Shown: piece by piece, positions 17,596 through 33,994 of the stretch
How positions within the stretch are numbered: the stretch's first letter is position 1
How the letters are laid out: the number at the start of each line of letters is the position of its first letter
DNA from: Planctomycetia bacterium
Lineage (GTDB): Bacteria; Planctomycetota; Planctomycetia; Pirellulales; Thermoguttaceae
Reading direction: 5' to 3'
NCBI GenBank assembly: GCA_030527705.1
Contig: JAUNAI010000009.1
Coordinates: forward strand, 1 to 36,867
DNA length: 36,867 nt
Program-made: the position numbers and the translations under genes
The notes under the pieces: generated by a model
Told to the model about the DNA's origin: nothing
The model's input: only the letters and a program-made list of their open reading frames with translations
Database searches by the model: none

Positions 17596-18426
17596 TTACT
17601 TTTTTACAATTTTCGTCAAAAATGCTATTTCTGGGATTATTTTAATCGGGATTCCTTTTTGTTGTAAATTTTGTGTGGCTCGAATCTTATTGGTCGTTTT
17701 TCCTTTTTTATACTCTTCCCACAGTTGCTGACCGACGACAAGGTGGGTGACGTGGGAAGAGACTTCCAGACGGGTTTCGCCTCCTCCAGCTTTTACAAGG
17801 TTTCGGGCTTCTTCACGGGTCAAGCCGTATAAGTCGCCGGTAAAAACATGACACGTTCCCTCAAAAATTTTTTGTTCTTCGGTTTTTTGAGGCGGAACGG
17901 ATAAAACAAGCTCGGACGGTTGAGGAAATTCGTCGGGGATTTCGCGCAATGAAAACGGAAAATCTTCCCAATTCAGGTTTTCTTCTTCCTCTTCCATAAG
18001 TCCGTTTTCGTCGCAATATTGCATGGCAAGTTTCAAATAACGCTGTAGAATGTAAATCGGCGGGAATTGGTTTCGGCGATTGTACCAGACCACTAAATCA
18101 TCGCCTTTTTTGTCGCTGTTACACCTCGCACAGGCAAAAACAAGATTGTCGCCGGAATCCCACCCGCCACGAATTCTCGGGACGACGTGATCCAGCGTTA
18201 ATTTTCCGACGACTCCACAATAACAGCAAGCGTCGGGCAAGTCCATTTTCATTTTTTCATCTTTGAAAATTGACTTTACTTTTGACGTTCCTTCCAGAAG
18301 TTGCTTCAAAAATTTTTTTCGGATGCCATACGCAATGGGCGTGTAAGTTTTGTTCCCATTTTTCAGGGAGTAAACCGCCATTCCAAGTGTGGCGTAATGG
18401 CGGTATAAACGTTCACGGAGTTTCAT
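17596..18426 (-). CDS. HNH endonuclease-BRCT fusion protein
   Basis: This 276-residue protein has two recognisable domains. Residues 64-105 form an HNH nuclease: zinc pair C67/C70, catalytic [18 protein letters not shown] with D79-H80, N93, and zinc pair C99/C102. An acidic linker at 140-185 leads to a BRCT domain at about 187-272 ([20 protein letters not shown], then [11 protein letters not shown] and a [10 protein letters not shown] segment), most like the BRCT of NAD-dependent DNA ligase. HNH domains cut DNA; BRCT domains bind DNA ends, nicks or proteins. The pairing suggests a nuclease targeted by a BRCT module, for example defence or DNA processing. Its ATG overlaps the stop of the upstream SHD1-like gene by 4 bp, so the two are co-translated. 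Confidence 0.88.
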
Positions 18427-24365: not shown

Positions 24366-26480
24366 ATGGTGCGGTATAAAGACGCGAGCGAGCTTTTTGA
24401 CAACTACGATTCCAGTCTATTTGGCGACGGTTTTGCGTCGGACAGACAGGCGGAACACGCGGAAAATCACGCGATGAAGTACGCGGACCATAAGCAACGA
24501 GCGAAAGAGCGACAGGCGCGGATCAGCGAGGAGGGACGCGAAATCGGTCCACTTCCTCCGGTATTGTATCCTGAGTTGGTCGGAGAGTGTCGGCACGATT
24601 TTTTGAGGTTTATGCTAACTTTCGGCAACGCGGACCAGTCCGACCCGGCTTTCCCTGCTCCGTTTTGCGATGCGCAACTTTACGCGATTCGGTCAATTCA
24701 GGAAACGCTCTTGAATGGCGGTAGTCGTCCGTTGTGCTTGCCACGAGGTTTCGCAAAATCGACGTTTTGCGAGTGGGGAATTGCGTGGGCGTTGTGTTAC
24801 GGTCATCAGCGGTTTATCCTGATTATCGGCGCGAAACAACAGCTGGCGTCGCAGATTCTGGAGAACGTCGGACGGATTCTGTTTCAGAACGACCTTTTGG
24901 CGGCGTGTTTTCCGTCGCTGGTTTATCCCGTTTTGTGTCTCGATGGAAGTCCGGGACGCGCTCCGGGGCAGACGCTGGACGGCGAGCATACCAACATTAA
25001 GTGGAATTCGCGGACTCTAATTTGTCCGACAGTTGCGGGTGCTCCTTCTTCGGGGTGCATTGTGACGGTTTCGGGGTTGGACGGCGCGATTCGCGGTATG
25101 AAAGTCGGTTCCGACCGTCCGACATGCGTCATCGTGGACGACCCCCAGACCGAAAAAAGCGCGGCAAGCGTTCACCAGACCGATAGACGCTGGAATTTAC
25201 TTTCTGGAGCGGTGAAGGGGTTGGCTGGTCCGTCGCAGTCTTTGGCAATGATTGCTACGATTACGGTTCAGCGTCCAGACGACCTTTCGGAAAAGATTCT
25301 GGCGGCGTGGGGTGGTCGGCGTTTTTCGATGCTTCGGACGATGCCGGAGAAAATGGAATTGTGGGAAGAATACAATAAACTCCGGGAAATCGGGATTAAA
25401 AACCACATTGAGACGGCGGATCAAATTCGGGAGGCGAATGTGTTCTATCTTTCCCATCGATCGGAAATGGACGCGGGAGCGGAAGCGGAGTGGGAATACC
25501 GATTCGACTCAAGAACGGAAGTTTCGGCGATTCAACACGCGATGAATCTTTATTTTGCAAATAAGCAGACGTTTTTTTCGGAGTATCAAAACCGACCGTT
25601 AGCGATTCTCGACGAGGCGCGGAATTTGACGCGGGATGAGATTTTGCGAAAAATCGTGACCGTCAAGCGTTATACGGTTCCGCTGGAGTGCGAGCGCGTG
25701 ACGTGTGGGATTGACATTCAACAGGATTGTCTGTACTGGGTAACGACCGCTTGGGGCGATGGTTTTCGTGGTCACGTTTTGGATTATGGACGGTTTCCGG
25801 AAGGGAGAAAAACGATTCAGGATTTGTTTCCCGATGCAAGTGAAAAAGACGCTTTTTATCTGGCTTTGGGACGATTGTGTCCGATTCTCGATTCACGTTC
25901 TTATCAGCGTGAAGACGGGACCGCGTTGAAAATCGAAAAAGGTCTGATAGACGCGAACCGTGGGCTTTTCACGCCGCAAGTTAGGAAGATTTGTTACGAT
26001 ATGAATTCCGTTTGGGAACCGGTTTTCGGCTGGGGGAAAGGCGCGGACGAGTTGTTTATCCGAGGCGGATTGAAACCGGGCGAGCAACGCGGCGAGAATT
26101 GGCAACGTCCGGCGTTGGTTCCGGCAAATTTGGTCCGACACACGCGATACGATACGAACTATTGGAAATCGTCGGTCCGAACCTTTTGGCAAGCTCCGGC
26201 GGTCGGATCAGGAACGCTGACGCTTTTCGACGGCGATGAACGCTCCCATTACGATTTCATTCAACATCAGCTTTCGGAAAAATCCGTTCCGGTAACGGGT
26301 CCGCGAGGGACGATTGACAAGTGGACTTTAGTACCCGGTTTAGAAAATCACTTGTGGGATTGCTTAATTATGGCGACCGTCGCGGCTTCCGTTTGCGGTT
26401 CCCACCTTGCAAGCGCGACAACGCCCGCAAGTAGAAAACTTTTGTATCGTGTTAAAAATTGGTCAGTTAAACCTAAATAA
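24366..26480 (+). CDS. Phage terminase large subunit
   Basis: This 704-residue packaging motor would thread DNA into the prohead and cut it. The N-terminal ATPase has a modified Walker A, CLPRGFAKST (about 124-133), and Walker B TCVIVDDPQTEK near 256. The C-terminal RNase H-like nuclease starts at VTCGIDIQQDCLYWV near 448 with a catalytic Asp, and a late LWDCLIMA provides another acidic residue. GAAAAAGGAG precedes the ATG at 24,366. The length suits GpA-like large terminases. No small terminase is recognised upstream; the 318-bp gap before it has no ORF, so that subunit is elsewhere, diverged or absent. Confidence 0.88.
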   Translation: MVRYKDASELFDNYDSSLFGDGFASDRQAEHAENHAMKYADHKQRAKERQARISEEGREIGPLPPVLYPELVGECRHDFLRFMLTFGNADQSDPAFPAPFCDAQLYAIRSIQETLLNGGSRPLCLPRGFAKSTFCEWGIAWALCYGHQRFILIIGAKQQLASQILENVGRILFQNDLLAACFPSLVYPVLCLDGSPGRAPGQTLDGEHTNIKWNSRTLICPTVAGAPSSGCIVTVSGLDGAIRGMKVGSDRPTCVIVDDPQTEKSAASVHQTDRRWNLLSGAVKGLAGPSQSLAMIATITVQRPDDLSEKILAAWGGRRFSMLRTMPEKMELWEEYNKLREIGIKNHIETADQIREANVFYLSHRSEMDAGAEAEWEYRFDSRTEVSAIQHAMNLYFANKQTFFSEYQNRPLAILDEARNLTRDEILRKIVTVKRYTVPLECERVTCGIDIQQDCLYWVTTAWGDGFRGHVLDYGRFPEGRKTIQDLFPDASEKDAFYLALGRLCPILDSRSYQREDGTALKIEKGLIDANRGLFTPQVRKICYDMNSVWEPVFGWGKGADELFIRGGLKPGEQRGENWQRPALVPANLVRHTRYDTNYWKSSVRTFWQAPAVGSGTLTLFDGDERSHYDFIQHQLSEKSVPVTGPRGTIDKWTLVPGLENHLWDCLIMATVAASVCGSHLASATTPASRKLLYRVKNWSVKPK

Positions 26481-27833: not shown

Positions 27834-29489
27834 TTGATCCCGACTCAACGATGGTTTTTTATTCAACCTTTTGAGCCGCCCAACGTTTTAAGTCGTTCAA
27901 CCTTTTCAAGATTTGGTGTTAAAGTGAGCAGAAATAAACGGAAAAAGAAGCGTTTACAGGCGAAAATGGTCGCGGACAGGAATGTCCCCGCCCCTATGGA
28001 ATCCGTTTTGGGAGTGAATCGTGCTGGAGGTTCTCGACGCTCTTTGTATCGACACGGGAGAGAAATTCATCCGGTAGCGGAAGCGCAACTGGAACGGATT
28101 GAGGCGACGATGGTGGAATCCGCAATGCCTCCAGAACGGCTTTCGGTTTATTTCGGCGATAGTACCGATGATTTCGCGGATAGAATCATTTCGGAAGGCG
28201 TGCGACAGAACTTAAGAGCGAATTCGAGGAAGATTTTCTTAAATGACGCCTGTACGAATCACGGTTGTTTCGTTTTTGGAATTCACACCATTGGAAGTAC
28301 GGGACCGGAATTGAATGTGGTTTCTGAGAAACAGCTTGGTCGGCAATCGTCGAACGCTTTCGGGATTACATTGTCGGCGGAAGAAAGAGAATATCTCGAA
28401 TGGGAATGGTTTTACTTTCAGCAGGAAATCGACCTTTCAGACCATTTACGGCAAGCGATTGAGGCGTTGCAGTATGATGGGGAAATGTTTTTCCAGCTGG
28501 TTTTCGACCCGGAAATTTCGCGCGTGAATCTAAATTTGTTGCAGATTGAAGCGAAACGAGTTCGGTATCCAATGCAAGGTCCGTGGAATGAGCAACTGGT
28601 TGAGGGTATCGAATTTGAGGGAATGCACCCGAAAACGTACTACGTTCAGAAAAAGGTTTTGAATCCAAATCTGGATTTTGCGTGGACGTTTGAGCCGATT
28701 CCGGCGGACCAGATACTTCATTTTGTTGTGAAACGCTTGCCGGATCAGCACCGAGGAATGTCGTGGTTGTCGTGTGTTTTGAATGACTTGGCGGAAACGC
28801 ACCTTTACGACCAGTATCACTTGGGAGCGGCGAACGCTGCGGCTCGGAATAGTGGCGGTGTTGTAGAGTTGGATGCATCGCTTGCGTATGAACCGGGCGA
28901 CCCGATTGATTTGGATGGAATTACCGAAATGGACGCTCCTAATCCGGGAATGATTAAGCAACTTTTACCCGGTATGAAGTATGTACAAGGGTCGGCGCAG
29001 TGGCCGTGCGGAAGTTACGATACGTTCATTAATTCGAAACATAAGAAACACGCGGCGGGCATGAATCTGACGAAAGCGATGTTGACGAATGATTTTTCAG
29101 ACCACAATTATTCCAGTTTTCGAGGTGAAATGATTGTGTATTGGGAGGTTATTCGTTATATTCGTTCAAGGCTGGAAAGATTGATTTTGGATAAACTTTT
29201 CGACCATTGGATTTCGTGTTTATCGTGCGTTGATGAAAAAGTTGCGGAAATCGTTTCAAGGCATAATGGGAACGTGAAAAGGATTCCTAGATCGTGGAGT
29301 TGGTCTCCAATTCCGGCTTTTGACATGAAAGACTTGATTGCGTCGTTACAAGTAGCGGTTTCCGCTGGTTTCATGTCACGGAAAATGGCGGTTCAGGCTC
29401 TTGGTAAAGATTTTGAGCAGGTGGAACAGGAAAGAATCGCGGATACGTTTCAAAGTGTAAATGGTGAAGTAAATGAAAATCAGAGTTGA
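27834..29489 (+). CDS. Phage portal protein (lambda gpB-like)
   Basis: This is a portal ring protein of up to 551 residues, the dodecameric gate for DNA. Family-like features are DDFADRIISEGVRQNLRANS near the N-terminal third, a long central DQILHFVVKRLPDQHRGMSW with NDLAETHLYDQYHLGAANAA, and a C-terminal MFxxM-like helix region. The start is uncertain: TTG 27,834, GTG 27,924 and ATG 27,966 are all in frame, none with a strong ribosome-binding site, and the first 40 residues look unlike the family. The repeat R3 lies in that doubtful 5' part. The end overlaps the next gene by 17 bp. Confidence 0.82.
   Translation: MIPTQRWFFIQPFEPPNVLSRSTFSRFGVKVSRNKRKKKRLQAKMVADRNVPAPMESVLGVNRAGGSRRSLYRHGREIHPVAEAQLERIEATMVESAMPPERLSVYFGDSTDDFADRIISEGVRQNLRANSRKIFLNDACTNHGCFVFGIHTIGSTGPELNVVSEKQLGRQSSNAFGITLSAEEREYLEWEWFYFQQEIDLSDHLRQAIEALQYDGEMFFQLVFDPEISRVNLNLLQIEAKRVRYPMQGPWNEQLVEGIEFEGMHPKTYYVQKKVLNPNLDFAWTFEPIPADQILHFVVKRLPDQHRGMSWLSCVLNDLAETHLYDQYHLGAANAAARNSGGVVELDASLAYEPGDPIDLDGITEMDAPNPGMIKQLLPGMKYVQGSAQWPCGSYDTFINSKHKKHAAGMNLTKAMLTNDFSDHNYSSFRGEMIVYWEVIRYIRSRLERLILDKLFDHWISCLSCVDEKVAEIVSRHNGNVKRIPRSWSWSPIPAFDMKDLIASLQVAVSAGFMSRKMAVQALGKDFEQVEQERIADTFQSVNGEVNENQS
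27862..27889 (+). repeat. R3 short dispersed repeat copy
   Basis: TTCAACCTTTTGAGCCGCCC and the following AACGTTTT match, in reverse complement, 22035-22062 over 28 bp, and match 26817-26836 (GAGCCGCGCAACGTTTTAAG) over 20 bp. TTCAACCTTTT recurs at 27896-27906. Confidence 0.55.
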
Positions 29490-31527
29490 AGCGTCGTTTT
29501 CGATTGGAGAAAAAACGTTTAAATTCGAGCCGTTATATAGTGGCGGAACGCTGTGGATTGACGGTTTCGATTGCGGAATGGTTCTCGATATTTCAGGTGT
29601 GGAACCGTTGCCGGAAAAAGTGGCAGCGTGTTTTGACCATAATCGGGAGCAGGTCGTGGGAACGTTTCATCCGGAAATTGTGGAAACCGAAAAAGGTTCT
29701 CAAATTTGTGGGGAAGGCGTTTTTGATGTGACGGCTCCAGCGTGGAACGTTTTGAAAGCGTTTCAGGTAGAAGGGGTGAAATGGGAGTGTTCCATTGCGA
29801 CCGAGGATTTTTCCCCGGAGCGCGATGTGGAATGGATACAAGCCGGTGAATGTGTGAGCGTCAACGGCAAAAAGTTTGTTGGACCGGTTGGCGTTGTCCG
29901 AAAATGGGCGCTTGCCGAGGGTTCTTTTGTTCGGCGTGGAGGCGACGCTTTTAATACCGCGTCGATTTCGGCGCGTCTTTTATCAGTGAAAGGAAAAGGT
30001 ATGAGTGATGAACTTCGGGCTTTCATTCAGGAAGCCAATTTTGACCCGGACGCTTTGACGCCGGAGCAGATTGCGATGTTTGAAAAAGCGTTTGCGGTCT
30101 GTGAAGCGCGAATTAAGGCGGAATTGGAAGAAGTGGAGAAAAACTGTCAGGCTGAAATCGACGACGATTTGAAACCCGCCGATGACGCTGATGGCGAGCC
30201 GTCGCTTGTCGATGATGAGGAAAATGGTGACATTTCCGCCGATGATTTGGACCCGGAAGAAAGTCCTGATGGGTCCGAAACGGAGGAGGATTTAGAACCG
30301 ACTTCGGAACCGAAACCGGTAAACGCGCGAGCGTCGCGAAAATATCGACGTGGAAAAGTGACGGCTTCGGCTGGCGCTCCGTCTCCGAAAGAGGTTTTTG
30401 GCGTTGCGTTGATGAAAAGTTTCGGTATGGAAGATAGGGCGATTAAAGCGTCTGGTTATTCTGATAATGCGATGTCGGAAGGTTTAGCGGGGCGGTTTTC
30501 GTCTTATTCTCCGCGCGACTTGATTTGTGAAATGATCCGACAATCGACTGGGCGTGTTTTTCGCGGTACGGAAGACGCTTTCATGGAGGCGTTTTTCAAG
30601 CCGAAAAGTGTGCGTGCAAGCGCGTTTTCGACTTCTACGCCACTCGGTATTTTGAGCGAAGTTATCAACAAGTTTTATGTTTCCGGTATCATGTCGGTCA
30701 ATGACCCGTTACAGAAAATCGCGAAACGGATTCCTGTCAATTCTTTGCGAACGGCTCTTGTCACGAATTACGACGTGTACGGCGTCCCGGAAGAAACGCC
30801 TTATACCGGTCGAATTGCGGACACAACGCTCGTCGGCGAAGATTACAACATCGGAATCGGACTTGACGGGAGTAAATTGACGTTGACCCGTGATATGATG
30901 GTGAATGACGATTTGAACGCGCTGCCGGACGTTTCGGCGAAACTGGGACGGAAACAGCAGTTAAAGCGTGTCAAGCGCGGTCTTAAAAAGCTGATGGACG
31001 GCGCGACGGGAACTGCGGGAACGTTTACGACGGGCGTGAATAAATCGACGGTTCCTCTTTCTCTGGAAGGTCTGAACACGCTGGCGGGAATGTTGGCGTC
31101 CATGACGGACATCGGAAGCGACCCGAACGACCCGACTTTCACGGAAAACGTCGGAAAATATCTGCTTGTACCGACGGAGTTGGCGGCGACGGCGGATTCG
31201 CTTTACACCGCGACGAACTTGTTAGCGCAGACGGCTGGCGGAACGGTGACGCTGACTTCGCGCCGTCACCGTTTCGAAGTTATCGACACTCCTTATATCG
31301 GAGCCGGAGTGAATGGCGGCTCGGCGACGAACTTCTTTTTGCTCGCGGACCCGCAATTCTCGGCAATTCTCGGAGAAACGCGCCTCCGTGGCTCGGAAGA
31401 ACCGCGAATTATGCAGGTTGCGCCGCCGCCGAATATTCTGGGAGCATCGTGGGTCTGCTACTTTGAGTACGGCTTCGGGCTGATGGATAAGCGTGGCGCG
31501 GTGTACTCGACGGGCGCGGGAGCGTGA
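29473..31527 (+). CDS. Fused prohead protease, scaffold and major capsid protein
   Basis: One 684-residue polypeptide carries three head-assembly modules. Residues 1-170 resemble a phage prohead protease, with a possible catalytic His in FDHN (56) and Ser in ECSIATE (107). Residues ~178-288 are acidic and helical, then low-complexity Asp/Glu-rich, like a scaffold (delta) region. Residues ~300-684 look like the major capsid protein (LREDMM-like DMMVNDDLNALPDVSAKL, GKYLLVPTELAATADSL, ending ASWVCYFEYGFGLMDKRGA). A Met at 177 (position 30,001) follows AAAGGAAAAGGT, so an internal start could make scaffold-capsid alone, as in lambda C/Nu3. Maturation cleavage near residue 290-300 (RKYRRGKVTAS) is plausible. 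Confidence 0.82.
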   Translation: MKIRVEASFSIGEKTFKFEPLYSGGTLWIDGFDCGMVLDISGVEPLPEKVAACFDHNREQVVGTFHPEIVETEKGSQICGEGVFDVTAPAWNVLKAFQVEGVKWECSIATEDFSPERDVEWIQAGECVSVNGKKFVGPVGVVRKWALAEGSFVRRGGDAFNTASISARLLSVKGKGMSDELRAFIQEANFDPDALTPEQIAMFEKAFAVCEARIKAELEEVEKNCQAEIDDDLKPADDADGEPSLVDDEENGDISADDLDPEESPDGSETEEDLEPTSEPKPVNARASRKYRRGKVTASAGAPSPKEVFGVALMKSFGMEDRAIKASGYSDNAMSEGLAGRFSSYSPRDLICEMIRQSTGRVFRGTEDAFMEAFFKPKSVRASAFSTSTPLGILSEVINKFYVSGIMSVNDPLQKIAKRIPVNSLRTALVTNYDVYGVPEETPYTGRIADTTLVGEDYNIGIGLDGSKLTLTRDMMVNDDLNALPDVSAKLGRKQQLKRVKRGLKKLMDGATGTAGTFTTGVNKSTVPLSLEGLNTLAGMLASMTDIGSDPNDPTFTENVGKYLLVPTELAATADSLYTATNLLAQTAGGTVTLTSRRHRFEVIDTPYIGAGVNGGSATNFFLLADPQFSAILGETRLRGSEEPRIMQVAPPPNILGASWVCYFEYGFGLMDKRGAVYSTGAGA

Positions 31528-31560: not shown

Positions 31561-31920
31561 ATGAACGCAATTTGGCGAAATGACGATTTGGAAATCCCTT
31601 TTTACCCGGAAACGGACCTTGAATCAGGCGTTTTCGTAGTTCTCGGCTCTTTGGTCGGTATCACGAAAGCCACTTTTGAGGCGGGACAGTGCGCGTCGCT
31701 GACGCTTCGGGGAATCTTCCATAACGTCGCAAAACACAACGTGGCGAACGCACTGACGAAAGGTCAGAAAGTCTGGCTGAATCCGACCACGGGCAAGATT
31801 CACAACGCTTCGGCGGCTGGTTATATTTGCGTCGGGTACGCGCTCGACGCCGCTGGAGCGACGGACGCGACTTGTAAACTCCTTCTTCGTCCGACGGGCG
31901 AGGTGGGCGCGAGCAGTTGA
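31561..31920 (+). CDS. DUF2190-like head protein (possible capsid decoration protein)
   Basis: This 119-residue protein has the DUF2190 pattern: GSLVGITKATFEAGQCASLTL, then GIFHNVAKH, then ALTKGQKVWLNPTTGKIHN, and a final GYALDAAGATDATCKLLLRP. DUF2190 proteins lie directly after the major capsid gene in many phages and in some cases are decoration or stabilising proteins. AAAGAGG precedes the ATG. All-beta composition is expected. Position and pattern agree; the exact role is inferred. Confidence 0.78.
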   Translation: MNAIWRNDDLEIPFYPETDLESGVFVVLGSLVGITKATFEAGQCASLTLRGIFHNVAKHNVANALTKGQKVWLNPTTGKIHNASAAGYICVGYALDAAGATDATCKLLLRPTGEVGASS

Positions 31921-32407: not shown

Positions 32408-32430
32408 GGGGACTCTTCGGGGTCCCTTTT
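32408..32430 (+). terminator. Hairpin terminator before the protease gene
   Basis: AGGGGAC and GTCCCT pair with one bulged G around a short loop and are followed by TTTT. GGAGGTGA directly after it is the ribosome-binding site of the next gene. Confidence 0.5.
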
Positions 32431-32440
32431 GGAGGTGATT

Positions 32441-33994
32441 TTGATTAAGTTTTTACTAAAAAGCGTGTGTGGAATCGTTTTCGGTTTCCTACTTACAACC
32501 GTCGTCAATGCGGATTTATACAACGCGAGTAAAGCCTGTATCCGTGTCAGTACTTCCGATGGGGTTGGTTCAGGTGTCGTCGTTGGCGCAGATTCCGAGC
32601 ATTATTATGCTTTGACGAATGCACACGTCGCAACGGGGAAAACCGTGACCGTTGAGTTTTTCGACGCGTCGCAGATTGTCAAGTTTCAGGCAACGGTTGT
32701 TTTGAGAAGTCAAAAACTGGATATAGCAATTCTGAAAATTAAAACGGAAGGAAAGTATAATCCGTCTTTACTTCCGCTCGACCCGAATTACACGATTAAA
32801 AAAGATGACGTTTTGGCTACGATGGGACACCCACAAGGGAGGTACCCGACGACGTATTTTTGCTCTTACATCGACCGAAGCGACGCTTTTGGATATCGGT
32901 TTACACCACCGCCGAAGCAGGGACGGAGCGGCTCGCCGCTTTTGGCTTCTGACGGCTCTCGCGTCGTTGGTATCGTCTATGGGTACACCACATCAGACAA
33001 TGCGGGACTTGCGATTCCTGCTGATGTTATCGCTCGGTATGTAGAAGGTGCTACGACAGGAAAAAAAGTGACGGAAACTTGGTTTCCTAAAACCGAAGGG
33101 GTGGAAAGATTGGGAATGGAATCCGTTTTGAGTGAAGGCGTTACGAACGTTCCTGAAAAGCTGGAATCAGCGGGAGATGAAGTCAATCCGACTGCGAGAA
33201 GATTTCGGCAGCGCGGACGTCGCTGGGAACGTTTTTTTCAGCGAAAACGTTTTTCACCAGAGGAACAGCAGGAACCGTTTCAAGAGCACGATTTGACGGG
33301 TACGCCAATCGTGAAAACTCAGTACATGTATTCTTTTCCGGTAACGGACTGTCCGTCTGGTCATTGTCCTAGCACGTCTTCAAGTTCGGGCGACATCATC
33401 GGTGAAAAACCGCCTATCGAAATCATCGGTGGGAAAGATGACATCTTACCAGACCCGCCCAATGTGGAACCGAAGACGGTAAAGAAAAAGGCAGTGGAAG
33501 AGCCGGAAGAAAAAATCGTTCCTGTCATTCCTTCAGCTTTTTCTGGGCGAGTTGCTAAACTGGAAAAGCGTGTCGAAGATTTGGAGGCGACTGTAAACGC
33601 CCTGAAAAAAGAACATGCGGAAGAGACGAAGCGCAAAACGATTCCCGACGCGCTAGAAAATGGAATCTCGTCGGGAATCATCGGCGCAACGGATAAAATT
33701 ACGGTTTCCGTTTCCGAAGACTTGCAGACCGTCGCAGGTTCATCAGCTCTCGCGCTTTCCACAACCGCCGAGGCTTGCACACTTGCGTCAGAATCATTTT
33801 CCGCCACGATGAAAAAGACCTCCGAAACGCTAACCGTCGTCGATTCCACACTTAACGACGTTCGCGACTTTTTCTACCATTTTGAACGGTTAATAATCGC
33901 CTCAATTATCGCATTTTCCATCATTTACATCGTCGGAAGGTTATTGGAATCCGCGAAAATTAATCTGAAAACAATGAAACAGGAGGAAAACTGA
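32441..33994 (+). CDS. Secreted trypsin-like (DegP-type) serine protease with C-terminal membrane anchor
   Basis: The best start is TTG 32,441, spaced correctly from GGAGGTGA; this gives 517 residues. A signal peptide spans 1-24 (ending TTVVNA). A chymotrypsin-fold protease domain at about 28-205 has the triad His62 (TNAHVATG), Asp94 (KLDIAILK) and Ser164 (QGRSGSPLL). Downstream are a basic segment (RRFRQRGRRWERF), a Pro-rich stretch, a coiled coil near 365-395 (VAKLEKRVEDLEATVNALKK) and a transmembrane helix near 485-505 (LIIASIIAFSIIYIVG). A protease with signal peptide and membrane anchor is unusual among virion genes; it may act on the host envelope or alter the lysogen surface. Confidence 0.85.
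   Translation: MIKFLLKSVCGIVFGFLLTTVVNADLYNASKACIRVSTSDGVGSGVVVGADSEHYYALTNAHVATGKTVTVEFFDASQIVKFQATVVLRSQKLDIAILKIKTEGKYNPSLLPLDPNYTIKKDDVLATMGHPQGRYPTTYFCSYIDRSDAFGYRFTPPPKQGRSGSPLLASDGSRVVGIVYGYTTSDNAGLAIPADVIARYVEGATTGKKVTETWFPKTEGVERLGMESVLSEGVTNVPEKLESAGDEVNPTARRFRQRGRRWERFFQRKRFSPEEQQEPFQEHDLTGTPIVKTQYMYSFPVTDCPSGHCPSTSSSSGDIIGEKPPIEIIGGKDDILPDPPNVEPKTVKKKAVEEPEEKIVPVIPSAFSGRVAKLEKRVEDLEATVNALKKEHAEETKRKTIPDALENGISSGIIGATDKITVSVSEDLQTVAGSSALALSTTAEACTLASESFSATMKKTSETLTVVDSTLNDVRDFFYHFERLIIASIIAFSIIYIVGRLLESAKINLKTMKQEEN

Follow-up and report, generated by a model that had tools for sequence, protein, structure and literature searches.

In phage lambda, the protease gene C contains an in-frame internal start at the border between protease and scaffold, from which a protease-free product (Nu3) is made; the lambda protease is of the ClpP type. 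Herpesvirus UL26/UL26.5 also yields in-frame, 3′-co-terminal products, i.e. a protease-scaffold protein and the scaffold alone, but the nested scaffold has a separate promoter and the capsid protein is encoded separately. A “tripartite capsid gene”, in which a single gene covers protease, scaffold and capsid, was reportedly described for Gifsy-2 by Effantin in 2010. In HK97, the gp4 protease and the gp5 capsid protein are products of two separate genes, as summarized in PMC8508860, unlike in the locus described here. This locus is a protease-scaffold-capsid fusion gene located within a 36,867-nt stretch of DNA of a Planctomycetia bacterium (GenBank assembly GCA_030527705.1, contig JAUNAI010000009.1; the whole stretch is hereafter referred to as the window). 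Judging from its nucleotide sequence and those of its relatives, this gene very probably has two products, of which one is the fusion and the other a shell protein that lacks the protease.

The protease-capsid fusion architecture is already catalogued, and is therefore not new. NCBIfam contains two models named protease/major capsid fusion (NF045541 and NF045540), the Rhodobacter RcC cluster is described likewise in PMC8601537, and gp5 of Pseudomonas phage MD8 joins a ClpP protease to scaffold and capsid within a single gene according to PMC8508860, a paper whose main text does not use the word “internal”. The window protein matched NF045541 over residues 336–682 only (83.4 bits, E 1.3e-23; below the curated cut-off of 525); three of its relatives reached 276–308 bits, and the proteins of phages Pd_22F, S1, RcOceanus and B8b scored above the cut-off. 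Fusions of the NF045541 type (labelled as such in the RcOceanus and Anseraureola records) share the architecture and a homologous capsid part, and are annotated with one product and no internal start. EpicDab gp9 was considered as a precedent and rejected, since the internal ATG discussed in PMC9671378 precedes the protease domain. No earlier report of an internal start in protease-capsid fusions was found in the literature searched, which covered few subscription journals, and within it the conserved nested start is apparently unreported.

The first-pass annotation, made from the nucleotide sequence of the window alone, had proposed a single frame joining a protease-like part, an acidic scaffold-like middle and a capsid-like part. 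The frame is indeed open and begins with ATG (Table 1), and structure prediction performed for each part bears out both the protease and the capsid fold. The AF2 model of residues 1–176, based on 61 sequences (pLDDT 83.5, pTM 0.74), was most similar to T4 gp21 (Z 9.4, rmsd 2.5 Å, 125 residues aligned), followed by the herpesvirus assemblins of VZV (Z 8.8) and pseudorabies virus (Z 8.0); Foldseek also ranked herpesvirus proteases at the top, albeit weakly (E 2.3e-3). H56 and S107, which had been singled out as protease-like residues, are in the proposed places and, together with E149, are invariant across the 61 aligned sequences. Both the assemblin-type fold and the conserved, putatively catalytic His and Ser place this region among the Peptidase S78/prohead proteases. 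A ClpP-like protease, as in NF045540, was rejected on the basis of the gp21/assemblin fold. Pfam PF04586 (Peptidase S78) gave no match to residues 1–176 of the window protein, and matched 37 of the 61 members of the alignment at E≤1 (best 4.8e-6). Searching the PDB with the single sequence produced chance matches only; the PDB profile search retrieved no protease relative and weak capsid relatives.

Residues 177–386 are read, from their position and composition, as a scaffold (delta-like) region with a putative scaffolding function. In the model of residues 177–684 (60 sequences; pLDDT 78.7, pTM 0.60) this region comprises a helical head (177–232) modelled with confidence, an acidic low-confidence stretch (around 226–297) and further helices (305–375). 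The acidic middle is real: residues 226–284 contain 25 D/E and 2 K/R. The capsid-like part had been placed at residues ~300–684. Its HK97 fold was upheld, but its boundary was not: Pfam PF25209 (Phage_capsid_4) matched residues 387–677 (E 4.6e-19; 70.2 bits vs. a gathering cut-off of 27), and the structural match to HK97-fold proteins (Foldseek E 4e-10; fold Z 13–16) spans model residues 211–508, corresponding to protein residues 387–684. The latter form the HK97-fold major capsid domain, and residues 300–386 are a linker/N-arm outside the capsid core.

The protease domain is followed by ATG 30,001 (codon 177), which follows AAAGGAAAAGGT, as annotated. The fusion gene contains 17 in-frame ATGs, and a properly spaced Shine-Dalgarno (SD) sequence is found only at codons 177 (5-nt match) and 202 (4-nt match). 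The first ATG of the ORF (29,473) has no SD, whereas the internal one is preceded by AAGGA; neighbouring genes of the same phage have similar start signals (e.g. AAAGGA before 34,714). Moreover, the nested product is predicted to fold with high confidence from its first residues. Taken alone, the SD and ATG of the window are only suggestive.

The conservation of this signal was determined among relatives of the fusion, with an SD defined as at least 4 nt of AAGGAGGT at a distance of 3–11 nt from the start codon, and with a tested interval of 10–30 codons beyond the protease end. The first set contained 63 distinct fusions of the host phylum, obtained from 86 loci by dropping single-domain, cut and identical ones. 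An ATG with SD was present within the interval in 53 of them (60/63 with GTG/TTG allowed), and in 15/15 when one sequence per 50%-identity cluster was retained; an SD accompanied 53/54 junction ATGs, compared with 78/667 other internal ATGs. The same rule was applied to a second set, drawn from named collections, of 141 fusions (159 minus 18 duplicates; 75 viral and 66 genome). Here, an ATG with SD was found in 119 cases (73/75 viral, 46/66 genome), or in 124 with GTG/TTG allowed, and an SD was present at 122/139 junction ATGs vs. 154/1758 other ATGs. The background rate at other in-frame ATGs of the fusion genes is about 9–12%, and the frequency at the junction resembles that at the start of the downstream gene (109/127). 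A generally stronger internal than first start is unsupported: among 128 relatives, the internal start surpassed the best of the candidate upstream starts in 60, equalled it in 26 and fell short of it in 42, so the difference observed in the window is no general rule.

Fusions found in phage records displayed the same feature. Of these 18, 11 are not of the ClpP type (hosts include Paenibacillus, Pseudomonas, Stenotrophomonas, Bordetella, Rhodobacter, Synechococcus, Microcystis, Pseudoalteromonas, Silvanigrella and Microbacterium) and 7 are; Pfam was run on 10/18 (4 gave CLP_protease, 3 Peptidase_S78), and the rest were typed by annotation, alignment or sequence likeness. With the junction ATG chosen by eye, all 18 have a border ATG with SD, compared with 19/272 other ATGs. 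In Faecalibacterium phage FP_Epona and Dulem virus 34 the protease and capsid are separate genes, split at the same border, and the capsid ATG is preceded by TAGGAGG and GAGGAGG, respectively. The capsid ATG of Dulem virus 34 is in frame, six codons past the protease stop, and therefore the split and fused arrangements differ there by little beyond one stop codon. The capsid ORF (395 aa) is also separate in Methanoculleus virus L4768. Three further loci, L018 (1159–2397), L022 (1174–2409) and L077 (1314–2642, minus strand), carry capsid-domain ORFs with no recognisable protease nearby and are possible protease-free relatives. Capsid-only loci were set aside as proof of an independent start, other such loci being cut by contig ends.

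The pattern might reflect a conserved protein sequence, namely a Met with Lys/Gln-Glu at a cleavage site, rather than translation. Lys-Glu is common at the junction, and the in-frame register of GG is identical in 99/119 cases. The contribution of the peptide was estimated by redrawing synonymous codons from each gene's own usage, the junction ATG being taken as that nearest the modal position, irrespective of SD. An SD was observed at 116/120 junction ATGs vs. 96.9 expected (z 5.9), and one of at least 5 nt at 100/120 vs. 72.9 expected (z 8.4), while at 423 control ATGs the same reshuffling showed SDs to be slightly rarer than expected (z about −2). Lys-Glu is written ...GGAG in 66/73 cases near the junction ATG vs. 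59/172 elsewhere in the same genes, and the junction SD is also encoded by other residues, among them Tyr-Gly-Gly, Ser-Gly-Glu and Pro-Glu. By this sequence-based measure the peptide accounts for much of the junction SD, and codon choice favours the SD beyond the peptide's need; protein conservation as the source of the whole pattern is scarcely credible. It is also very unlikely that the SD-like sequence acts without initiation, by holding ribosomes back and letting the protease fold ahead of the scaffold. A slowing effect on ribosomes has been proposed for internal SD-like sequences, and the one considered here lies exactly at a domain border, but it is coupled to a start codon at initiation spacing (in the 60/63 and 124/141 fusions mentioned above) and the split relatives have a true gene start at the same place. 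Conservation of the ATG and SD, codon choice and the split-gene relatives together strongly support the putative internal start at 30,001 proposed by the first-pass annotation.

Another explanation is that only the 74-kDa protein is made, as a single-start polyprotein with the protease on every subunit and self-cleavage at the protease/scaffold border, in which case the internal ATG and SD would be a relic. This would fit the finding that protease and capsid share one frame in 159/160 loci, as well as the existence of a Rhodopirellula-type clade of 12 fusions (from Rhodopirellula, Rubripirellula, relatives and one viral contig) that has no SD at the border, and in 3/12 no ATG either, but keeps the catalytic motifs intact. 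Several observations weigh against the production of two proteins. This clade accounts for 12 of the 22 second-set fusions without an ATG and SD in the interval, and some relatives may thus dispense with the internal start. Among the rest, L136, L198, L203 and L211 have GTG with SD, L231 has TTG with SD, L213 (masked bases) has ATG with SD one codon outside the interval, L194 has ATG without SD, and L238, L204 and L209 have none. In addition, part of the SD excess is due to the conserved Lys-Glu/Gln-Glu, the synonymous expectation being already 97/120; the tested interval was set after inspection of the first set, and the choice by eye in the phage records counts in the same direction. Pseudoalteromonas phage B8b counts in favour of two products: its fusion shares the junction described here, and its virions gave 937 spectra and 42.7% coverage of the fusion (PMC4294664, Table 1), showing that the fusion gene encodes a major virion protein, but this coverage figure is silent on which part of the protein was detected. 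The absence of SD from the Rhodopirellula-type clade is only weakly informative, because an SD is missing from 7/12 of its downstream gene starts as well, which suggests SD-poor initiation in the hosts or phages concerned. Furthermore, a relic would decay, but the SD is kept in 119/141 deeply diverged fusions, codon choice included, and hundreds of protease copies would presumably need room inside the shell. We therefore regard a single-start polyprotein as unlikely.

It is highly probable that the ORF represents two overlapping, in-frame, 3′-co-terminal genes, with starts at 29,473 and 30,001, that encode a minor 74-kDa subunit and a 55-kDa shell protein, respectively. The 74-kDa protease-scaffold-capsid protein would be initiated at 29,473. 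The 55-kDa scaffold-capsid protein would start at 30,001 with an SD of its own; it would be equivalent to the HK97 precursor capsid protein and is predicted to serve as the principal capsid precursor. The 55-kDa form would build the procapsid shell, in which the 74-kDa form would co-assemble as a minor subunit, placing the protease in cis inside the procapsid; the protease would then cut off the scaffold, and probably itself too, to leave a capsid core of ~32 kDa. The analysis shows the ORF, its predicted folds, the conservation of the start signal and the existence of split-gene relatives; from these we infer the initiation at 30,001, the product ratio, the co-assembly and the cleavage sites. 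The earlier suggestion that two products set the ratio of protease to capsid is plausible.

A fusion of protease and capsid in a 1:1 ratio is puzzling with regard to assembly, since it places a protease on each shell subunit. A conserved nested start would resolve this puzzle, with the annotated “fusion” as the predicted minor product, and would correct the start of the capsid gene in many phages and prophages. We lean slightly towards the view that all tailed-phage protease-capsid fusion genes, whether of the gp21/assemblin or the ClpP type, are two nested genes, in which the fusion is a minor product that brings the protease into the procapsid as one of the shell subunits, the true capsid protein arises from the internal start at the protease/scaffold border, and the capsid N-terminus is wrong in databases.

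The coordinates of the analysed features are listed in Table 1. The window contains head module genes, with host-like genes at its left end. Because the fusion ORF is flanked by portal and cement protein genes, with a GpA-type terminase gene upstream, we identify the locus as a head module belonging to a tailed phage or prophage. The true start of the portal gene is perhaps ATG 27,966. Relatives of the fusion protein were detected in 50 of the 392 sampled genomes of the host phylum (including that of the window), and those with a named source are mostly from Planctomycetota. A single-sequence search of viral contigs, genome contigs and plasmids revealed no close relatives, and that of the phage collection gave 4 distant matches, all to the capsid part only. 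Some genomes carry at least three different copies of the fusion gene (L210, L212, L215, L220 and L232 on chromosome CP087563.1; L002/L033/L036; L007/L035/L037), which suggests that one planctomycete host can harbour several related prophages.

Other genes of the window were also noted. A gene for a trypsin/HtrA-like serine protease (32429–33994, plus strand; PF13365, E 1.7e-14; HtrA/DegP models match too) comes just after those for capsid and cement protein, where such a protease is unusual. At the left end of the contig (663–6176, minus strand), a DnaJ gene lies close to two distinct genes for Cpn60 chaperonins, and a protein encoded at 17599–18426 (minus strand) combines an HNH endonuclease domain with a BRCT domain.

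Table 1. Features of the fusion gene and its surroundings in the window, and loci of the clade without border SD.
Feature	Position	Strand	Remarks
Terminase large subunit, GpA type	24366..26480	+	upstream of fusion
Portal protein, lambda family	27834..29489	+	3′ end overlaps fusion start by 17 nt
Protease-scaffold-capsid fusion ORF	29473..31527	+	684 aa, 73.9 kDa; open frame, ATG start
Prohead protease domain (predicted), residues 1–176	29473..30000	+	T4 gp21/herpesvirus assemblin fold
Catalytic-motif residues	H56 29638–29640; S107 29791–29793; E149 29917–29919	+	within protease domain
Internal Shine-Dalgarno AAAGGA (putative)	29989..29994	+	6-nt spacer to ATG 30,001
Nested scaffold-capsid frame (predicted)	30001..31527	+	508 aa, 54.7 kDa
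Scaffold (delta-like) region (putative), residues 177–386	30001..30630	+	structure model, composition
HK97-fold major capsid domain, residues 387–684	30631..31524	+	PF25209, Foldseek, fold Z
Capsid cement/decoration protein	31561..31920	+	PF09956
Loci of the SD-less clade			L202, L214, L217, L221, L225, L228, L234, L235, L240, L243, L245, L148

The proposed scheme would resemble that of lambda C/Nu3 and, more broadly, that of herpesvirus UL26/UL26.5, but with a capsid precursor as the nested product. The analogy with lambda drawn in the first-pass annotation holds for the nesting, as a putative in-frame internal start with SD lies at the protease/scaffold border, but not for the type of product. 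The nested product of lambda is scaffold only and the capsid gene is separate, whereas the nested frame of the window continues through the capsid domain to 31,527 and comprises scaffold and capsid. The two systems also differ in the protease, which is of the ClpP type in lambda, as well as in the Gifsy-2 and MD8 fusions, and of the gp21/assemblin type in the window; the latter fold is shared with the herpesvirus UL26 protease (Z about 6–9). The predicted nested product would correspond to HK97 gp5, in which the delta domain, a scaffold, is fused to the capsid protein. The nested gene of the window would thus extend the lambda C/Nu3 strategy in two ways, by including the capsid protein and by involving another protease fold.

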